Origin: a virus
Virus record (IMG/VR): IMGVR_UViG_3300046817_000193
Coordinates: 1-23,387 of that record
DNA length: 23,387 nucleotides
Direction: 5' to 3' (one strand)
Of this stretch, positions 2,011-15,827 are shown piece after piece. Each line of letters starts with the position of its first letter. The first letter of the stretch is position 1. The notes under the pieces are model-generated. The model saw only the letters and a list, made by a program, of their open reading frames with translations, ran no database searches and was not told the DNA's origin. The position numbers and the translations under genes are program-made.

Positions 2011-3927
2011 ATGGACCTGATCCGCAAAACCGCCGCCGGCAAGGTGGATGGGAGCCTGAGCTATGTGCTTTCGGACGCCACGGTCGACCGCTACGGCGAC
2101 GTGATCGAGCCGAAGGGCTGGCTGCTGGACAATTTCCGGCGCAACCCTGTGGCCCTGTTCAACCACAACGCCAATCATGTCGTCGGCAACTGGCGCGACG
2201 TGCGGGTCGAGAACGGGCGGCTGCTTGCCGAGTTCGAGGCGGCGCCGCCGGGCACGACACAGATGGCAGACGACGTCCGCCGGCTGATCGACGCCGATGT
2301 CCTCGGCGCGACTAGCGTCGGCTTTCTCGGCCTTGAGTCCGAGCCGATCGACGCGAAACGGCCGAATGCCGGGACGCGCTACACCAGGCAGGAGCTTTTG
2401 GAGACGAGCATCGTGTCGGTGCCGGCGAATGCGTCGGCACTGCACGTTGCGCGCTCGATGAACATTTCCGACGACACCATCAACCTTGTCTTCGGCGAGC
2501 ATGCCGCAACGAGACGGGACATGGTGACCACAACCGGCGGGCATGCCGTCACGAAACGCCTTTCCAGGGCGGACAATCCAATGACCATCAGCCAACAGAT
2601 TCAGGACACTCAAACACGCCTTAACGCAGCGCGTGATGCGCTGACGGAGTACGTCACCGAGCCTGATCAAGACCCGGTGCAACGCGACGCGATGTCGAAC
2701 GATATCCTAGCGGTTGAAGCCGAGCTTCGCTCGCTGGAGAATGCCGAGCGTGCCTTAGCGCCGCGCGGGCCGGGGCAACAGGTGGCGGCAACGAGTATTG
2801 CCGCGCCCGCCAACCTTCGTCGTCCGCTCGGGTTGCCGGCGAAGGAACGAACGCACCTCGACCTCTATTTGGGGATGCTGGCGGCACGGGTCCGGGCCGC
2901 GGTGACCAGGCAACCGATCGATGACGTGCTGCGCCAGCATTACCCGGAAGACGAGGGGACGGCGATCGTCACCCGCGCCGCGATTAGCGGAGCGACGACG
3001 GTTGGCTCAGGATGGGCGATCGACCTTGTGCAGTTAGCGCAGGGCGAGTTCGTCAACCTGCTCTATCCGAACTCGGTGTTCCCGAAGCTCTCGGCGATGG
3101 GAACGGCGCTGAACTTCGGGCCGAATGCAGGGGCGATCAAGATCCCGAGCCGAACGGCGTCCCCATCGATCGGTGGCACGTTCGTTGCCGAAGCCCAGCC
3201 GATTCCCGTGCGTCGGTTTGGGACGACGTCGATCACGTTGTATCCACACAAGGTCGGCGGCATCAGCGTCTATAGCCGCGAGATCGCCCAGTATTCCAAC
3301 CCGGCGATTGAAGCGCTGATCCGCGACAGCATCGTCAACGACACGAGCATCAACATCGACGGCGTGTTGCTCGATAATACGGCGGTGTCGACGACGCGGC
3401 CGGCGGGGCTCACCAACGGCGTGTCGACGCTCACCGCGACGACGGGTGGCGGCTATGCGGCGTTCCTGGGTGACCTCAACAAGCTCACGGCGCCATTTTA
3501 TGCCGCCAACGCCGGCCGCAAGCTGGCGCTATTGGTGAACCCGCAGCAACGGCAGCAACTTATGTTCGCGCCTGGGCCGGCCGGCGCCCCGTTCGGGTGG
3601 GCCACCCAGTTCCTCGACATGTTCACCATCGTTGCCTCGACCTCGATCGCCGCCGGCAGCGCGTACATGATCGACACCGTCGATTTTGTCAGCGTGGCGG
3701 ATGCGCCCGAGTTCATCATCAGTGAAGAAGCCACCCTGCATATGGAGGACACGACGCCCTTGCAGCTCGCAACGGGCGCACAGGGTTCCGGGGTGCTCGC
3801 GACGCCGTCGCAATCGATGTTCCAGACTGCGCAAATCGCCATTCGCATGACCGCGAACGTCAGTTGGGCCATGCGGCGCAGCGGCATGGTGCAGTTCATC
3901 GGCAGCGGCATCAACTGGGGGCCGTAA
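2011..3927 (+). CDS. Prohead protease fused to HK97-fold major capsid protein
   Basis: One uninterrupted 638-residue frame carries two head proteins. Residues 1-150 resemble the HK97 gp4 (U35) prohead protease: SDATVDRYGDVIEPKGW near the start, a candidate catalytic histidine in FNHN (H52), a candidate serine in GATSVGF (S102) and the strand ETSIVSVPAN at 131-140. Residues 191-250 are polar and helical (NAARDALTEYV, AVEAELRSLENAERAL) like an HK97 delta/scaffold region. From about 275 the HK97 capsid fold follows, with IKIPSRT, FVAEAQPIP, SREIAQYSNPAIEALI and a C-terminal FQTAQIAIRM segment. The protease would cut scaffold segments during maturation. Such fusions are known in some phages. Met191 has its own good Shine-Dalgarno, so a separate capsid chain may also be made. 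The gene is followed by a terminator-like hairpin. Confidence 0.9.
   Translation: MDLIRKTAAGKVDGSLSYVLSDATVDRYGDVIEPKGWLLDNFRRNPVALFNHNANHVVGNWRDVRVENGRLLAEFEAAPPGTTQMADDVRRLIDADVLGATSVGFLGLESEPIDAKRPNAGTRYTRQELLETSIVSVPANASALHVARSMNISDDTINLVFGEHAATRRDMVTTTGGHAVTKRLSRADNPMTISQQIQDTQTRLNAARDALTEYVTEPDQDPVQRDAMSNDILAVEAELRSLENAERALAPRGPGQQVAATSIAAPANLRRPLGLPAKERTHLDLYLGMLAARVRAAVTRQPIDDVLRQHYPEDEGTAIVTRAAISGATTVGSGWAIDLVQLAQGEFVNLLYPNSVFPKLSAMGTALNFGPNAGAIKIPSRTASPSIGGTFVAEAQPIPVRRFGTTSITLYPHKVGGISVYSREIAQYSNPAIEALIRDSIVNDTSINIDGVLLDNTAVSTTRPAGLTNGVSTLTATTGGGYAAFLGDLNKLTAPFYAANAGRKLALLVNPQQRQQLMFAPGPAGAPFGWATQFLDMFTIVASTSIAAGSAYMIDTVDFVSVADAPEFIISEEATLHMEDTTPLQLATGAQGSGVLATPSQSMFQTAQIAIRMTANVSWAMRRSGMVQFIGSGINWGP
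2566..2583 (+). promoter_or_regulatory. Internal in-frame ribosome-binding site and start for capsid
   Basis: AGGGCGGA at 2566-2573 is followed by 7 nt and an in-frame ATG at 2581, which is codon 191 of the fused protease-capsid gene. Starting here would give a 448-residue capsid precursor beginning MTISQQIQD, exactly at the helical delta-like region. The site falls at the expected domain junction, which argues against chance, but GC-rich coding DNA often contains such purine runs. Confidence 0.45.
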
Positions 3928-3984: not shown

Positions 3985-4416
3985 ATGTCTGATCCAACGC
4001 CGACGCAGGCCGAGGCCGACGTCCTTCAACACACCGCGCTCGGAATCGACCCGACGCATATGCCGCCATCAAACGTCGATGTTCCGGCGATCGGCGGCGG
4101 CGGGCCGCCGGGTTCGACCCTCACCTGCACGATGGGCAACTGGGAGGGCGAGCCGACGAGCTACGCTTACAGTTGGCGAGCCGGCAATGCCAATCTCGGG
4201 TCCGGCGAGACCTATGTCGTCGCCGAGGAGGATGTCGGCCGCGAGATCTGCTGTCTCGTCACCGCGAGCAATGCCTACGGCTCGACGATGGCGCCGCCGT
4301 CCAACAGGGTGACGGTGGCGGCAGGCGGGACGCAGGCGGCGCGGTCCCGTGGTCCCGAGAAAGAGACCCGCGACATGAAGCCCGAGCCTGGATCGCCCGG
4401 CTACAAGACCCGCTGA
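3985..4416 (+). CDS. Ig-like domain protein, possible capsid decoration protein
   Basis: A 143-residue protein with a single bacterial Ig-like fold at about residues 36-113. The signature is visible: GPPGSTLTCTMGNWEG, then YAYSW, a TYVVAEEDVGREI stretch and VTASNAYGS. This is the G..TLT...G.W...P..Y.Y.W....ADVG..I...V.A.N..GS pattern of phage and actinobacterial Ig-like repeats. The C-terminus is basic and disordered. It starts at an ATG with a strong GGAGGA four bases upstream, directly after the capsid terminator. Ig-like domains next to capsid genes often decorate the virion surface and bind glycans; that role is inferred. Its TGA overlaps the portal ATG (TGATG at 4414-4418). Two adjacent cysteines (ICC) sit in the domain. 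Confidence 0.75.
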   Translation: MSDPTPTQAEADVLQHTALGIDPTHMPPSNVDVPAIGGGGPPGSTLTCTMGNWEGEPTSYAYSWRAGNANLGSGETYVVAEEDVGREICCLVTASNAYGSTMAPPSNRVTVAAGGTQAARSRGPEKETRDMKPEPGSPGYKTR

Positions 4417-5807
4417 TGGCGTCGAACTGGCTCGCCAAGCTGCCGTGGGGCAAGCGGGCGGTCGAAGGACAGTATCGACCAGGCCCGTATTACCTGACCC
4501 AGGGACAGAATACCGGCTGGCTGAGCGCGAGCGCGGGCCGATACTGGAACTGGTGGCAGAGCGGCCACAACCTCCAGCCGTTTGGCTCGCAGAGCGCGAT
4601 GCTGGAAGCCTGCGTCTCGGCCTATTCGCAGACCGTCGCGATGTGTCCCGGCGATCACTGGCGCAAGCTCGACAATGGCGGGCGCGAGCGCGTCGCCAAC
4701 TCGGCGTTGACCCGGATTATGAAGTCGCCGAACGACTACCAGAACATCAGTGATTTCCTGATGAACCTGACGCGGCGATTGTACGAGCGCGGCGAGAGTT
4801 TTGCCGTCGCCGAGCGCAACAACCGGGCCGAGATCAGTGCGCTGCACCTGATGCGCGACGGCTGGCCGTCGATCTCCCCCGAGGACGGTTCGATCTTTTA
4901 TTCGCTCGCCGGCAACGAGGTCGCGGCGGCGCGGCTTGACCTGACGACGGGGATTCCGGCACGCGACGTGCTGCACGTCCGTCTGCATACGCCGCGGCAT
5001 CCGTTGCGCGGCGAGAGCCCGATCCTCTCGGCGGCGCTCGACCTGGCGATGTCGAGCCTGGCGCGGCAGCAGCAGGTGAACTTTTACGGTAACCAGTCGC
5101 GGCCGAGTTTCCTGTTGACCACCGATGTGGTCATGCCGCGCGAGAAGGCGAAGGAGCTGCGCGACTGGTGGAACGAGCAGTCGCAGAGCGAGAATGTCGG
5201 CGGCACGCCGATTCTGACCAGCGGGCTCAAGGCACAGCCGATCGAGACATCGGCGATCGACGCGCAGCTCGCCGAGATGCTGCGGATGTCCGACGAGAAG
5301 ATCGCGCTGGCGATGCGGATACCGCTTCAGATTCTCGGCATCGGCGGCACGACCTTCGCGAACACCGAACTTTTAATGCAGTCGTGGATCGCCTCGGGGC
5401 TAGGTTTCACGCTCAACCACATCGAGGAAGCGTTCGGCGCGCTGTTCGGGTTGCGCGGCATGCCCGACGAGTATCTTGAACTGGACACACGCGCATTGCT
5501 GCGCAGCGCTTACCGCGAGCGCATCGAGGGGCTGGCGCGCGGCGTCATCAGCGGCATCTACTCGCCCGACGAGGCACGCGCGGAGGAGGACCTGCCGGCG
5601 GTGCCCGGTGGCTTCGGGAAGCAGCCCCGCGTGCAACAGCAGGTCGTGCCGCTGTCCTACGGTGCCGATCTGAAACCGCCCGACCCGCAGGCCCCAAACC
5701 AGCCACAGCCCGCGAGCAATACCGATCCTGCCGATGATGGGAGCGGCGATGCTGGCGACAACCTTGGGAAAGCCTACCGTGCAGAGCGTCGCCGCCTCGC
5801 CGGTTGA
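4416..5807 (+). CDS. Portal protein, HK97 type
   Basis: A 463-residue protein forming the dodecameric ring at the capsid vertex through which DNA enters and leaves. Family features include [11 protein letters not shown] at residues 125-135, the [12 protein letters not shown] segment (198-208), [12 protein letters not shown] (223-234), and the basic/acidic helix around [18 protein letters not shown]. The reading frame is open upstream to 4173, but the ATG at 4416 is preferred because it overlaps the preceding stop and avoids a long overlap in another frame. The C-terminal 40 residues are a Pro/Gln/Asp-rich disordered tail. The gene lies after the capsid gene; in HK97-like phages it usually lies between the large terminase and the protease. 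Confidence 0.92.
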
Positions 5808-6426
5808 ATTGCTGGCGGCAGAGGTCGCCGCCGACGTTCACGCAATCGAACGTGAGTTGCGCTTGCAGCTATCGGCTGCACTGGCCGAGATCCGCGAGGC
5901 GCGTGCCGCACTGAGGGCCGACCGTGCCGAAGTTGAGTTGCACATCGAGCGCGTGATCACCGAAAAACTTGCCACGCTACAGGATGGCCCGCAGGGGCCG
6001 CAGGGCGCGCCTGGGGAGCGGGGAGAGCGTGGGGAGGCTATCACTGGGCCGCCGGGCGAACAGGGCATTCCTGGACCTCCTGGCGAGCCGGGAGAGCCGG
6101 GGCGCACGATGGCCTTCCGGGGCGCGTGGAAGGCCGCCAGCGCCTATGAAGCGCTCGACGTGGCAATGGTGGACGGTTCGTCATTTGTCGCGCTGTGCGA
6201 CGCGCCTGGGCCGTGTCCCGGCGAGCATTGGCGGCTTATTGCCTGTCACGGCAAAGCGGGGCTGCCGGGACCGGCCGGGCCGATGGGGGAGCGCGGCTGG
6301 CCGGGGCCGCCTGGCGCCGCGCCGGCAGCGCTGGAGGTCGACGGCGAGGGCATGCTGACGCTGCGCCTCGGCGACGGCTCGGCGCTGACCTGTGATTTCT
6401 ACCCGCTGCTGTCGGAGCGGCGGTGA
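5734..6426 (+). CDS. Collagen-like protein with coiled coil and putative glycan-binding module
   Basis: A 230-residue protein with an ordered architecture: a charged coiled coil (about 28-82), a Gly-X-Y collagen block (85-124, with a short break), a compact module at 127-172 beginning [17 protein letters not shown] and containing three cysteines, a second Gly-X-Y block (176-195) and a small beta-rich C-terminus. The middle module has the W/Y spacing of small chitin-binding-like domains (CBM5/12 style). The overlap with the portal end is 74 nt from the ATG at 5734, but the ATG at 5749 has a better Shine-Dalgarno (GGGAG five bases upstream) and would give 225 residues. Its place inside the connector cassette suggests a head or neck fibre. 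It ends in a GTGA overlap with the adaptor gene. The adhesive role is inferred. Confidence 0.75.
5986..6105 (+). repeat. Collagen-type Gly-X-Y repeat block (head-region protein)
   Basis: About 13 Gly-X-Y triplets rich in Pro, Glu and Arg, broken once by an EAIT segment. A shorter block follows after the glycan-binding-like module. Such repeats normally form trimeric triple helices, and the preceding coiled coil would serve as the trimerisation seed. Confidence 0.85.
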
Positions 6427-11384: not shown

Positions 11385-11834
11385 ATGCTCCCAGCGACAT
11401 TCTCCACGGTGCTCGATATCGTCGGTCCCGGCGTCAATCCATTTTCGGCGCGTGCTCTGCGCGGCACGCTCAGCCCGATTGCGCTGGCGCAAGGCAATGA
11501 CAAGCTGGCGCGCACGGTCAACGGAACGCTCGTCGACGTCTCCGCGCCGCAAATGCGCAAGTACCAGCTCGAAGTATCCGGCGATGACGTGGCGCCGCCC
11601 GCGCTCGACGGTCTGTGGGTCGGGATGCAAGTCACGGTGAACTCGCACGTCGAGTTGGCCTATCTGACGGCCGGTGGCGTGCCGGGACGCACGCCGGTCT
11701 CTGGCAGCCAGCGCATCGAGGGCGACTATACCTATTACTGCCCGCAGTTTGAGATGCTGGTCGTGGAATTACAGGTCGAGCGGCAGGAATGGGCCGCCGA
11801 AGTGACCTGGTCGCTCAAGTTTGAGGAGCTGTGA
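11385..11834 (+). CDS. Small tail-tip protein, function unknown
   Basis: A 149-residue beta-rich protein between the tape measure and the large hub, where distal-tail or hub-adaptor proteins are found. The start at 11385 was chosen because it lies 4 nt after the tape measure stop. The sequence is unremarkable except for a GLWVGMQVTVNSHVELAYL stretch and a C-terminal strand, WAAEVTWSLKFEEL, which reads like a tail-ring interface. No family was recognised. The last codons provide GAGGAG, the ribosome-binding site for the hub gene. Confidence 0.6.
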   Translation: MLPATFSTVLDIVGPGVNPFSARALRGTLSPIALAQGNDKLARTVNGTLVDVSAPQMRKYQLEVSGDDVAPPALDGLWVGMQVTVNSHVELAYLTAGGVPGRTPVSGSQRIEGDYTYYCPQFEMLVVELQVERQEWAAEVTWSLKFEEL

Positions 11835-14713
11835 TGCCCGGCCCATTTTACTTTTCGTGGTGCGGTGGGGCGATCCAAGAGCAAGTGACGCTCGTCACCA
11901 ACGGCAACACGCACGGTGGCAATATCGGCAGCACGCCGATTGTGGGCGACACGCAAGGCTTACAGGTCGTCAATGTCGCCAGTAGCTCCGGACTCCAGGA
12001 GGCTGAGCTCTATCAGCTCAGCGGGCCGGGCGTCGCTGATGGCACCTATTTTGTTTATGATACCGGCTTGCTGAGCGGCGCACCCAACTCGATCGCCCTA
12101 ACGCGCGCCGTGAGCACAGCGCGCTCCGTTAACCTCCAAGCCAATAATTCGATTCCTGTCGGCGAGGTGGCCGCGACGCTTCTGGCCGGCAGCGATGTTG
12201 CGGTGCTCAGCGATATCGATCTCGCGCCGGGAACTTACGGCATTCGCGGGACCGGCATCGCCGCAGTGCTTCAGACCATCACGCAGACGAGCATTTCAAG
12301 CGGCGGCGACAGCGTAACCAGCAGCACGACAAACCTCGTGCTCACGAGCTCCGCTTTCTTCGAATACGACGGCACCAGCGGCTCGGCGCATATGCGATAC
12401 ATGGTCGCCGATAATGATGTCACCATCACAAACGACCTGCTCGGCGGAACGATCACGACCACTCAGTATCACGTCGTCAAAAAACCGGCGTTCGCGACGA
12501 CAACGGGCCAATTTCCCGTGGTGATTTCGGGAATGCCGAATAGCGATTGGTACAGCATCACCAGCATACCGAGCGGCGTGCTCTCCGGGCTGCAAACCGG
12601 CTTGCGGTACAACATCACCGGGAACGGGCTACAGGTCGGCACGACCTTCGTCGCGCCCAGCGGCGGCAACGCGATCGAGATTGATCAGCCGGCCTCGTCG
12701 TCTCAGCTAAACGCCATCCTCACAATCACCGGACCTCGCACGCCCGACAGCGCGTTTGATCCCGCCGTGCACGACCGCTTCGATGCTGACATCCTCGCTA
12801 TCGACATCAGCCAGGAGGAAGGGTCATTCGCCACGCTGACCGTCAGCCTGAAGCCGACGAGCCTCGGGCTCGGCCTGCTCGCCGTCGGTCGCAATCTCTG
12901 GTGCTGGCTTTCCTGGGATCAGGCGTGGACGCCGGGCGGCTCGGTGCCGCCGGACCTCGTGCCGCTGTTCAATGGGCGCTTGATTGGGGTGCCGAAACTG
13001 CAAGCCGGCGAGATCGTGCAACTCGAATTCATCGCAAGGCCGGATGACTTCGGCGCCCAAAAACTCGCACTCTTCGAGTCGCTCGCCGAGCTGCCTTATT
13101 ACGACCCGGTCTGGCTCGCGGCGAACGTCAACACCGACACCGTGCTCGAAACCTATTCCGCGCTCTGGCATATCGACCGGGCCACGCTCGGCGTCACCGT
13201 CAGCGATTTGCTGCAGGGCGAGGACGGCACGATTGTCGTCGATGAAACCGTTTCGCTTTACGAAAACTTCAGCCTGACCTATGGGCAACCGCCGCTCGTC
13301 GCCGTGACCGTTTCCGGCACGGTGACGTGGCAACAACAAGCCACCGGCAATCTCGATGTGACGCAGAAGATCGTGGACGCCTTTCGCGCGCAGAACTCCC
13401 CGTGGAAAGACGCCTTCCCCAAGCCCGAGGGGGACACCGGACCCGGTGGTGGTGGCCTTATTTCGGTGCTCTCTGGTGACGGGATGCAAACTGATTGGCC
13501 GAAGCCGGGAACCAGCATCGGCGGCGGGTGGAGTTTGTCGAGCTACAATGACGGCAGCGGATATCCGCTCTGCTATTGCTGGAATGCGGTCTGGCCGATC
13601 GGCTGGTTGAAGTCGAAAACCTACAACGTCACCGTTGCCGCCCAAAACCCGAGCGTGCAGACGAATGCCGATGGCTCGGCGAATAATTCAGCAATGCTCA
13701 CGGGGCAATACAGCACATACATCTATGGCTTCCCCTTGAACATTTACAAAGTGCGCATGGTGCTGCGGTACGAGGCAGACCGGCGGCGCACCGAAACCAT
13801 CAGCGCCGTGATGATGGCTGACGTGCAGCGCTTGCTTTCGGATACCGCCGAACAGGACCGCGAAACCGTGGAGCTAACCTCGGAATATGTCGGGCAAGGC
13901 GTCGACCCCGGCGGCGAAGTCCCGATCGGCGATGTATCTTATCGCTCGTATTTCCAGACCGAGCGCGGCACCAGATCCTTTGAATACTTGCTGCTTGCTG
14001 CTCGGGCGAAACTACGGGCCAGGGCGCGAGCGGTGGACATTACCTTTGCGATGCCTTGGGGCGCCTCGCTTGGTCTCAACCTTCGCAACAGCGTTACGCT
14101 TTTCGATCGCCGGCTTCCCGGCGGCTCGGCAACCGGCAAGGTGAAATCGTACAAGCTGAGCGTGAGCGGAGGCCGGATGCTCGGCGAGTTTACAATCGGT
14201 TGCAGCATCGGGACCGGGGACGCTTCAACCGCCGTCGCTGGCGTCAATGCTTACGTCGATGACGGCTATGTCGACGGCTACCAAGTCGTGGCCGGCGGTC
14301 AAGCGATGCTACTCGACGACGAGCTGGCTTATCAAACGCTCGACGACTTCGCTATCGACGATGACGGGCTGCAATTGCGAAACATGACCATCCGCAGCGC
14401 GGTCAATGTCTGCACCGTACTCAACGGTTTGTTGACGCAGCTTCAGGCGCTTGGCCCCTATCAGCAGACGGTCGGATACGGCGATCCGTCGAGCGTCATT
14501 CGGAACCTTAGCACACAGGTCACGCTCGACATGAAGCCGGTGCAGGGGGCCGAGTTTCACACCTCGTTCTTCCCCGCCGTCTCCCCGTTGGCGCTTCCGA
14601 AGACAATCGACCTCGGCGCCACCGACGACGAGATGATGGCCGAGTGGGATCGCGGATCGGGCGGCTCGACATGGGACGGCGGCGACACTTCCTGGGATCA
14701 ACCGAGTGCCTAG
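11834..14713 (+). CDS. Tail hub/central tail-tip protein with large N-terminal insertion
   Basis: A 959-residue structural protein. It opens with MPGPFYFSW; the hub part resumes at about residue 307 with [20 protein letters not shown] and [14 protein letters not shown], followed by [20 protein letters not shown] and [10 protein letters not shown]. As I recall this alphaproteobacterial phage hub family, the FYF start is followed almost directly by the FD...DI..F....EG.FA.L region, so residues 11-300 look like an added block of Thr/Ser/Gly-rich beta modules. Later sections (540-960) include a long helix-containing region rich in Arg and an acidic C-terminus. The start at 11834 has GAGGAG five bases upstream; GTG at 11831 is an alternative. 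The TAG overlaps the next GTG start. Confidence 0.75.
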
Positions 14714-15827
14714 CCAGATCGACCCGACGCAGCCGCCCGAAGGTCAGCCGACGACGCAGGGCGTCCGCGATAATTTCGCGGTCGCGGCGTCGGAGATTAC
14801 GGCGCTGCAAGATGCGGCGCAGGGCGCGCCATTCATGTCGCTGTCCGGCGGGCAGATGGCCGGATCGCTGATGCTGAACAACGATCCCGGCGCGGCGCGG
14901 GAGGCGGCGAGCAAGCAATACGTCGATCGCATGGTGGCGCCGGGGCCGGCCGGCGCAGAGGGGCCGGTGGGGCCGGTGGGGCCAGCCGGCGTCCAAGGCG
15001 CGCCCGGAGCGCAGGGCGTGCCAGGAACACCGGGTGCCCAAGGCCCGCAAGGATTGCCGGGGGCGAAGGGCGATATCGGCTCAACCGGCGCCACCGGACC
15101 GCAGGGGCAGATGGGCCCGCAGGGCCAGCAAGGGCCGAACTGGCAAGTCGGCCCGGGGCTGAGGCTGAATGCGGGGACGACGCCATCGACGCTGCTGTTC
15201 GGAGACGTGGCCGATGCGAACTTGCTGGCGAACGTCAGCGGCGCGGTCGCGCCCGCCGTCGCTACCACGCTTACGGCGTTGCTCGACAAGGTGTTCGGCA
15301 ACACGCGCGGCGCGATTCTCTATCGTGGAGCGACCGGCTGGGCCGCGCTGCCGCCGGGAGCAAATGCCAGCCATCTGATGTCGCAAGGTCCGAATGCCGA
15401 TCCGATTTGGGTAACGAACGCGACATTGCAGCTTTCACCACCGGACCCGGCCGGCACGATGAGCACCGTGGGCGTCATGTGTGGTTTTGGCGTTGCCGGC
15501 GCTGTGATTACGCCAGCCGCAGCCGGGAATGTCCTCATCACCGTGACCGGCGCAGCGGGCGTCTCGTCCGGCAATGCTCCCGGCACGGTGAAGCTGGTCG
15601 TAGGCACCGGCACGCGGCCGGCGAACGGCGCGGCATTGCCGGCAGGCGCCACGGTTATTTCTTCAACTCTCGCCGCAGCGGTGCGCGCCGAGTTTACGCT
15701 GACCGGGCTCGCGCTCGGCTTGACCCGTGGCACGCAATACTGGATCGATCTGCTACAGGCGAGCCCGGCCAGCAACCTGACACTGACACTGACGAACAAC
15801 ACCATCACAGCAGTGGGAATGGGCTAA
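14706..15827 (+). CDS. Collagen-like tail fibre
   Basis: A 373-residue fibre with a GTG start at 14706, overlapping the hub stop by 8 nt. The N-terminus [20 protein letters not shown] is a tail-attachment segment common to phage fibres, followed by [12 protein letters not shown], another fibre hallmark. Residues 80-143 form a Gly-X-Y collagen block, and 171-236 are one copy of the ~70-residue unit found four times in the gene at 17000. A beta-rich C-terminal domain (about 248-373) ends the protein and probably contacts the host. The TAA overlaps the next ATG by one base. Confidence 0.85.
14943..15134 (+). repeat. Collagen-type Gly-X-Y repeat block (tail fibre)
   Basis: About 21 Gly-X-Y triplets rich in Pro, Ala and Gln with no long interruption. 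The triple helix would make a rigid shaft between the attachment domain and the repeated fibre unit. Confidence 0.9.
15216..15413 (+). repeat. Single fibre repeat unit shared with the 726-residue fibre
   Basis: The unit reads LLANVSG, then [25 protein letters not shown] and ADPIW. It aligns by eye with four copies in the downstream fibre gene, with conserved positions L-A-N-x-S-G, T-L-x-x-x-L-D, RG-x-[IV]-L-x-R, G-W-x-x-L and PG. Confidence 0.8.

Follow-up and report, generated by a model that had tools for sequence, protein, structure and literature searches.

A putative internal capsid start at the protease–capsid junction of a fused phage head gene

The stretch analysed here, referred to as the window, comprises 23,387 nucleotides (positions 1 to 23,387) of the IMG/VR virus record IMGVR_UViG_3300046817_000193, and its subject is a single-frame gene on the plus strand (2011–3927, 638 codons) in which a prohead protease, a delta-like segment, and a major capsid protein are fused. 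The gene is read as two in-frame nested cistrons, one for the full-length protease–capsid chain and one for a free capsid chain, a reading to which the sequences compared here lend a probability of roughly 0.87. Comparison of relatives shows that the second start codon and its Shine–Dalgarno (SD) sequence exist, that their nucleotides are conserved, and that they fall where the capsid gene starts in relatives with split genes.

One mRNA with two in-frame starts would be the simplest arrangement. Ribosomes initiating at 2011 would produce a 638-residue protease–delta–capsid chain, and ribosomes initiating at Met191 (2581), through the SD sequence in the linker codons, would produce a 448-residue delta–capsid chain, equivalent to an ordinary HK97-type capsid precursor. 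The estimated masses of the two chains are about 70 kDa and about 49 kDa. With the assembly domains present in both, the long chain would co-assemble with the short one, bring a fixed proportion of protease into the prohead, and eventually cleave away itself and the delta segments. We infer that both products are made, with the free form in excess, and that co-assembly and cleavage follow; the balance suggested by the first-pass annotation, with few fused chains and free capsid chains in the majority, is plausible.

The junction start in the home family

Codon 191 of the fused gene is an ATG (2581–2583) located seven bases after the purine run AGGGCGGA (2566–2573), exactly where the first-pass annotation had placed them. 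The core of this run in the window is AGGG, 11 bases upstream of the ATG and followed by CGGA, and the core in relatives is (G)AGGG. Two IMG/VR scans gave 51 home-family loci, 45 of which extend to the junction, and a scan of genome contigs gave a single prophage, in Aureimonas glaciei, with a gene 48% identical; together with the window these form a home family of 47 junction-reaching genes. The conservation in relatives on which the annotation had hinged is borne out, as the junction ATG is kept in 47/47 of these genes. Methionine occupies position 191 in all 46 rows that align there, and the remaining row, L052, starts 19 bases upstream of the junction and still shows the ATG. The residues flanking Met191 are variable, with insertions and deletions on both sides. 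Met191 is also nearly invariant (90% or more) in a set of 13 sequences whose identity falls as low as 25%; one of them, L075, has a GTG behind AAGGAG at the junction. The appearance of GTG on this column in L075 and in four genes of a sister family, described below, favours a start codon over a plain methionine, and the pattern as a whole argues for a conserved start.

The purine run is conserved as well. Pairing with the anti-SD sequence, assumed to be the standard tail, which may not be that of the host, was scored over 15 bases ending four bases before each ATG; the P-values below treat related sequences as independent. In 24 representatives at less than 90% identity, the mean energy at the junction ATG is −6.47 kcal/mol, compared with −2.04 for 327 other in-frame ATGs (Mann–Whitney p 3e-14, relatedness ignored), and a pairing of −5.8 is attained by 22/24 junctions vs 5.5% of the other ATGs. 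When the seven codons ahead of the ATG are shuffled synonymously, the null mean is −2.69 and none of 2000 shuffled means is as low as that observed, with per-gene p ranging from 0.003 to 0.84 (the latter in L059). The clearest trace lies in the codon for Arg186 (2566–2568), which is the rare AGG in 21/23 representatives and CGG in two. AGG makes up 5.8% of arginine codons and, at each of 18 other conserved arginine columns, is used by no more than four representatives. In rare-codon use, column 186 ranks second among 415 columns, after Thr174. Shuffling the whole linker synonymously also departs from expectation in the home family (Fisher p 3e-6; eight of 23 genes below 0.05). In 24/24 representatives, the RNA around the junction is predicted to be less structured than the rest of the gene (mean z 1.54). 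The N-terminal ATG at 2011 is preceded by a weak purine run, GGGAA (2000–2004, −4.3), and the mean pairing is −6.5 for the internal start (24 representatives) and −4.9 for the N-terminal start (26 genes), values that reflect output only weakly.

Fused genes of other families and split relatives

A PHROG_617 search of 397 genomes from the order of the Aureimonas host found matches in 279, and 40 more stretches were fetched by place. The protease profile is present in forty long frames from these genomes, accompanied by PF25209 in L103, L105, L111, and L066, and by PF05065 capsids in L069, L071, L068, L094, and L076. The host-order genes, the home representatives, and 25 named-phage genes give a set of 87 fused genes in 41 clusters at 60% identity, from which L127, whose frame is truncated, and L129, which lacks a capsid match, are left out. 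A junction SD of −5.5 or lower is found in 32/41 clusters, a count inflated by taking the best-SD ATG in the searched interval as the junction ATG, with six set by hand. Where that interval holds a single ATG, 15/20 clusters reach −5.5, L075 being counted with an unrelated ATG and its GTG left unscored. Unrelated peptides in different codon registers, including SRA, KE, PEG, SED, GDD, and KGEG, spell the SD sequence. In three cultured phages of the same design, the junction residue is Met217 (Escherichia phage HeidiAbel_Bas97), Met215 (Rhodobacter phage RcKemmy), and Met200 (Rhizobium phage RHph_X2_26).

Three further IMG/VR scans, with the best 80 loci of each, define families Ib, II, and III; these scans favour full-length fused matches and so are uninformative on how common fusion is. 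Family Ib, a distant sister family of the L067, Eco, and Rhizobium type, contains 75 fused genes (43 representatives below 70% identity). The ATG is on the aligned column in 68/75 and within six residues in three more, and the remaining four carry GTG on the column behind GGAGG, with pairing of −10.8 to −11.4; GTG accounts for 34% of valine codons in this family. The junction mean is −9.31 (62/71 at −5.5 or lower), compared with −2.41 for 1049 other ATGs. Family II (RcKemmy and L103 type), with another capsid type, contains 78 fused genes and 44 representatives; all 78 have the ATG no more than six residues from the column and 77 exactly on it, with a junction mean of −7.09 (63/78 at −5.5 or lower) vs −2.18 for 797 other ATGs. 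PHROG_617 capsids and Phage_capsid_4 (Mu gpT-like) capsids thus both show the dual-start signal. An ATG behind a purine run could in principle arise by chance, as about 12% of the 521 other in-frame ATGs in the 87-gene comparison reach −5.5; the conservation of ATG and SD and the codon evidence in the home family, family Ib, and family II make this explanation practically negligible, and the pairing at the junction is more than chance.

Family III comprises RcCronus, Bas97, Mica, and kin; its linkers cannot be aligned and the aligned-column test failed, so a test over the 60 codons after the protease was used in its place. Within this interval an ATG is found in 77/79 genes and the other two have GTG behind GAGGGG; the best energy averages −5.73, compared with −2.86 for equal numbers of other ATGs, with 49/77 at −5.5 or lower, or 18/37 where there is a single ATG. 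Four frames taken as ClpP-like (MD8, L404, L406, and L411; L426 and L429 left out), picked by eye, have an SD-bearing ATG after the protease at −5.6 to −8.6, and MD8 and L406 hold other ATGs with stronger pairing than the chosen one. The signal in family III and in these four frames is suggestive only. In twelve further frames, a post-protease ATG with an SD of −5.5 or lower occurs in seven (L417, L421, L423, L425, L428, L430, and L432).

Several observations weigh against the nested reading. In the home family, the two representatives with CGG (−5.8) belong to the window's own subclade, the Aureimonas member L059 has an SD of only −3.4, and all energies were computed with the assumed standard tail. 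The whole-linker shuffle gives no support in other groups, with p 0.48 (37 genes) and 0.079 (24 genes), since GGAG is already dictated by peptides such as Lys-Glu. The SD is weaker than −5.5 in 9/41 clusters, namely Alexa (−4.3), S-LBS1 (+0.3), Mica (−4.6), M29 (−3.5), L066 (−3.1), L068 (−3.9), L069 (−3.2), L071 (−4.3), and L076 (−1.0); S-CBS1 (−3.0) and S-CBS3 (−3.1) are weak as well. The aligned-column test in family III finds an ATG exactly on the column in 3/79 genes and within six residues in 43/79, with GTG or TTG only in 5/79 and none in 31/79. Finally, L407, L413, L416, L418, and L431, five of the twelve further frames, have no post-protease ATG at −5.5 or lower.

Relatives with split genes offer a natural comparison for the capsid start. 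In Stenotrophomonas phage SOVA965 and Moraxella phage Mcat7, protease and capsid are in separate genes, the SOVA965 capsid being annotated as two overlapping open reading frames (ORFs). Met253 of the fused protein of L067 aligns with residue 1 of the SOVA965 capsid (50% identity), and Met193 of the fused protein of Escherichia phage vB_EcoS-705R7 aligns with residue 1 of the Mcat7 capsid (36%); the alignment of Mcat7 with the window protein starts at residue 5, with an untidy register around the junction. In four loci of the split class from the family Ib scan (L174, L180, L218, and L221), an ATG in the capsid frame precedes the same AEQI motif; L180 has an additional earlier in-frame ATG, and in L174 the protease stop falls between the SD and the ATG. 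On these alignments, the first capsid residue in split relatives is the equivalent of the fused-gene junction residue. Together with the replacement of ATG by GTG in L075 and in the 4/4 ATG-less family Ib genes, this agreement supports the internal start that the annotation had put forward.

The same data bear on a different view, in which the gene yields the full-length chain alone, the protease releases the capsid by a cut at the junction, and Met191 owes its conservation to a role in the cleavage site. Fused genes are indeed annotated as single proteins, and capsid maturation proteases cut capsid precursors, as described in passages of PMC8508860. Such a cleavage site leaves unexplained the AGG codon at Arg186, the GTG in ATG-less genes, the SD spelled by unrelated peptides, and the equivalent capsid start of the split relatives, which renders it very unlikely.

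Fused and split forms interchange, with at least six changes on well-supported branches of a tree of 33 capsids, in which three long branches are unsure in place. "Split" in this tree denotes a separate capsid ORF; L074 and L099 are counted as split with no protease found in the fetched stretch, and L077, L078, L087, L089, and L095 with a protease match downstream of the capsid. In the latter five loci the protease match is flanked by the capsid ORF upstream and a portal-like ORF downstream, the reverse of the HK97 order, and in L074 a small ORF (897–1346), HNH-type endonuclease by eye, lies directly before a capsid gene without the N-terminal delta-like part. A same-frame ORF occurs downstream of the protease in 25/34 split loci, a count from a search that reads through stops and thereby favours same-frame cases, with ORFs not confirmed as capsids; in L077, L078, L082, L087, L089, and L095, the ORF picked appears by eye to be portal-like and not a capsid. 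The long matches of L019, L020, and L046 were considered as split forms and rejected, as each is an intact fusion followed by a second capsid-like fragment (in L020 at 5537–5791, matching query residues 333–454 with 32% identity), as if it were a truncated second copy.

Both the interchange on the tree and the same-frame ORFs would also suit an inactive relic, that is, an SD and ATG left behind by a recent gene fusion. This is highly improbable, as AGG is kept despite protein divergence of up to about 34% in the home family and turnover at other conserved arginine codons, and 75/75 family Ib genes retain ATG or GTG on or within six residues of the column. The relic and the cleavage site were both rejected on the codon evidence. 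If the internal start is used, it might mainly serve to supply extra delta–capsid chains, affecting shell size or stability instead of protease dose; the long chain already holds every domain, and the ratio is itself only a prediction. This use is unlikely, given that protease and capsid are two distinct proteins in split relatives, which makes protease and capsid the natural product pair.

With the nested start retained, fusion and fission may need little beyond losing or gaining the protease stop while the capsid ribosome-binding site is kept, and the dual start suggests how fused and split gene orders interchange on the tree. By a slight balance, we favour the extension that protease–capsid "fusions" across the tailed phages generally have two starts and keep the capsid ribosome-binding site, with fusion and fission as near-neutral one-stop-codon switches and the fused chain as a protease escort. 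How many protease molecules enter the prohead is an old question in phage assembly; if the nested reading is true, the protease-to-capsid ratio is encoded in one gene by two start signals. Furthermore, database records of a 600–700-residue "major capsid protein" may then name the minor product, which touches structure work, capsid-based taxonomy, and proteomics.

Architecture and surroundings of the fused gene

A single open frame spans protease and capsid, as first annotated. PHROG_617 ("major head protein") covers residues 15–630 (E 1.4e-63), and the S78 protease assignment passes with PF04586 at residues 26–148 (2086–2454; 31.6 bits, cut-off 21), with TIGR01543 at 33.7, below its cut-off of 59. 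The capsid profiles fall short, with PF05065 narrowly so at residues 363–517 (3097–3561; 23.6, cut-off 24.2) and TIGR01554 at 24.3 (cut-off 27.5); the relatives L076 and L067 exceed the cut-off of the HK97-fold capsid profile. The window protein scores 28.6 bits with the NCBIfam protease/capsid fusion profile NF045541 and fails its 525-bit cut-off, and Rhodobacter phage RcKemmy passes with 752.5 bits. Sequence searches of the PDB found no solved relative.

An AlphaFold2 (AF2) model from 27 sequences has a mean predicted local distance difference test (pLDDT) score of 45; the protease is modelled moderately and the capsid part with low confidence. The placement of codon 191 exactly at the domain junction holds for the onset of the helical region: the stretch with pLDDT below 50 (residues 165–191) ends at Met191, two residues ahead of a helix, and a block of about 65–79 spans residues 191–240; the protease Pfam match ends about 40 residues earlier. 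The predicted delta-like segment (residues 193–249, 2587–2757) consists of helices 193–215 and 222–249, and with the capsid region forms the putative nested cistron (2581–3927, 448 codons). Within the variable linker (residues 165–190, 2503–2580), Thr174 (2530–2532) is encoded by ACA in 13/15 representatives with threonine, making it the most unusual of the 415 columns in codon choice.

The fused gene sits between the terminase large subunit gene (457–1995) and a small ORF followed by the portal gene. This small ORF (3985–4416) weakly matches the virion structural proteins of PHROG_12736 (E 4e-5) and holds an Ig-like-looking TCTMGNWEGEPTSYAYSW stretch, with a similar stretch after the capsid in L020; it is possibly a decoration protein. 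Two ORFs (5734–6426 and 14706–15827) contain collagen-like Gly-X-Y repeats by eye, and the former matches tail-fibre families yet sits between the portal and head–tail adaptor genes. In the tail region, a 960-codon ORF (11831–14713) has no PHROG match at 0.001.

Comparison with known systems

In lambda, the protease gene C contains an in-frame internal start, and its short product Nu3 is the shared C-terminal assembly domain, a scaffold; in Mu, the protease and scaffold genes are named I and Z. The window gene is likewise a protease gene with an in-frame internal start codon and an SD after the protease domain, as in both of these pairs. The short product in lambda is a scaffold, whereas that of the window gene would be a capsid with a delta-like segment, the nested cistron continuing through the capsid region to 3927. 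The lambda in-frame scaffold start is named in a title in the reference list of PMC8508860. In-frame scaffold starts within the protease gene are also described for Mu-like phages in the consulted passages of PMC4378225, including a putative start at a valine codon behind ACGAGGA in gene 27 of Pseudomonas phage PaMx73; these produce a scaffold, not a capsid, and the capsid there is a separate gene.

Protease–capsid fusions are known in phages, as the annotation had noted. Passages of PMC5513430, PMC6536676, PMC8601537, PMC6563490, and PMC8508860 describe them in Arthrobacter AM/AU/AN phages, Paracoccus prophages, the Rhodobacter RcC cluster, thaumarchaeal proviruses, and Pseudomonas MD8, and NCBIfam NF045541 and NF045540 describe such fused genes. 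Their architecture is that of the window gene, and in these passages they are treated as single fused proteins with no mention of an internal capsid start. In the case of Gordonia phage EpicDab, gp9 is a protease–capsid fusion with an N-terminal extension, and its authors draw attention to an ATG within the gene (PMC9671378, in part); this ATG precedes protease and capsid together and is not at the junction. In HK97, the scaffold function resides in the N-terminal delta domain, which is joined to the capsid, according to passages of PMC10275583 and PMC8508860. The order and domains of HK97 genes 4 (protease) and 5 (delta–capsid) are those of the window gene, but in HK97 they are two separate genes (PMC8508860).

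Among the matches listed in the literature searched, mostly as excerpts, no internal capsid start at the protease/capsid junction was found, and an earlier description in subscription papers is possible. Within that literature, the fusions themselves are already known and the internal capsid start at the join is without a report. From its sequence, the window gene would work like the lambda C/Nu3 and Mu I/Z class, as a capsid variant of it.
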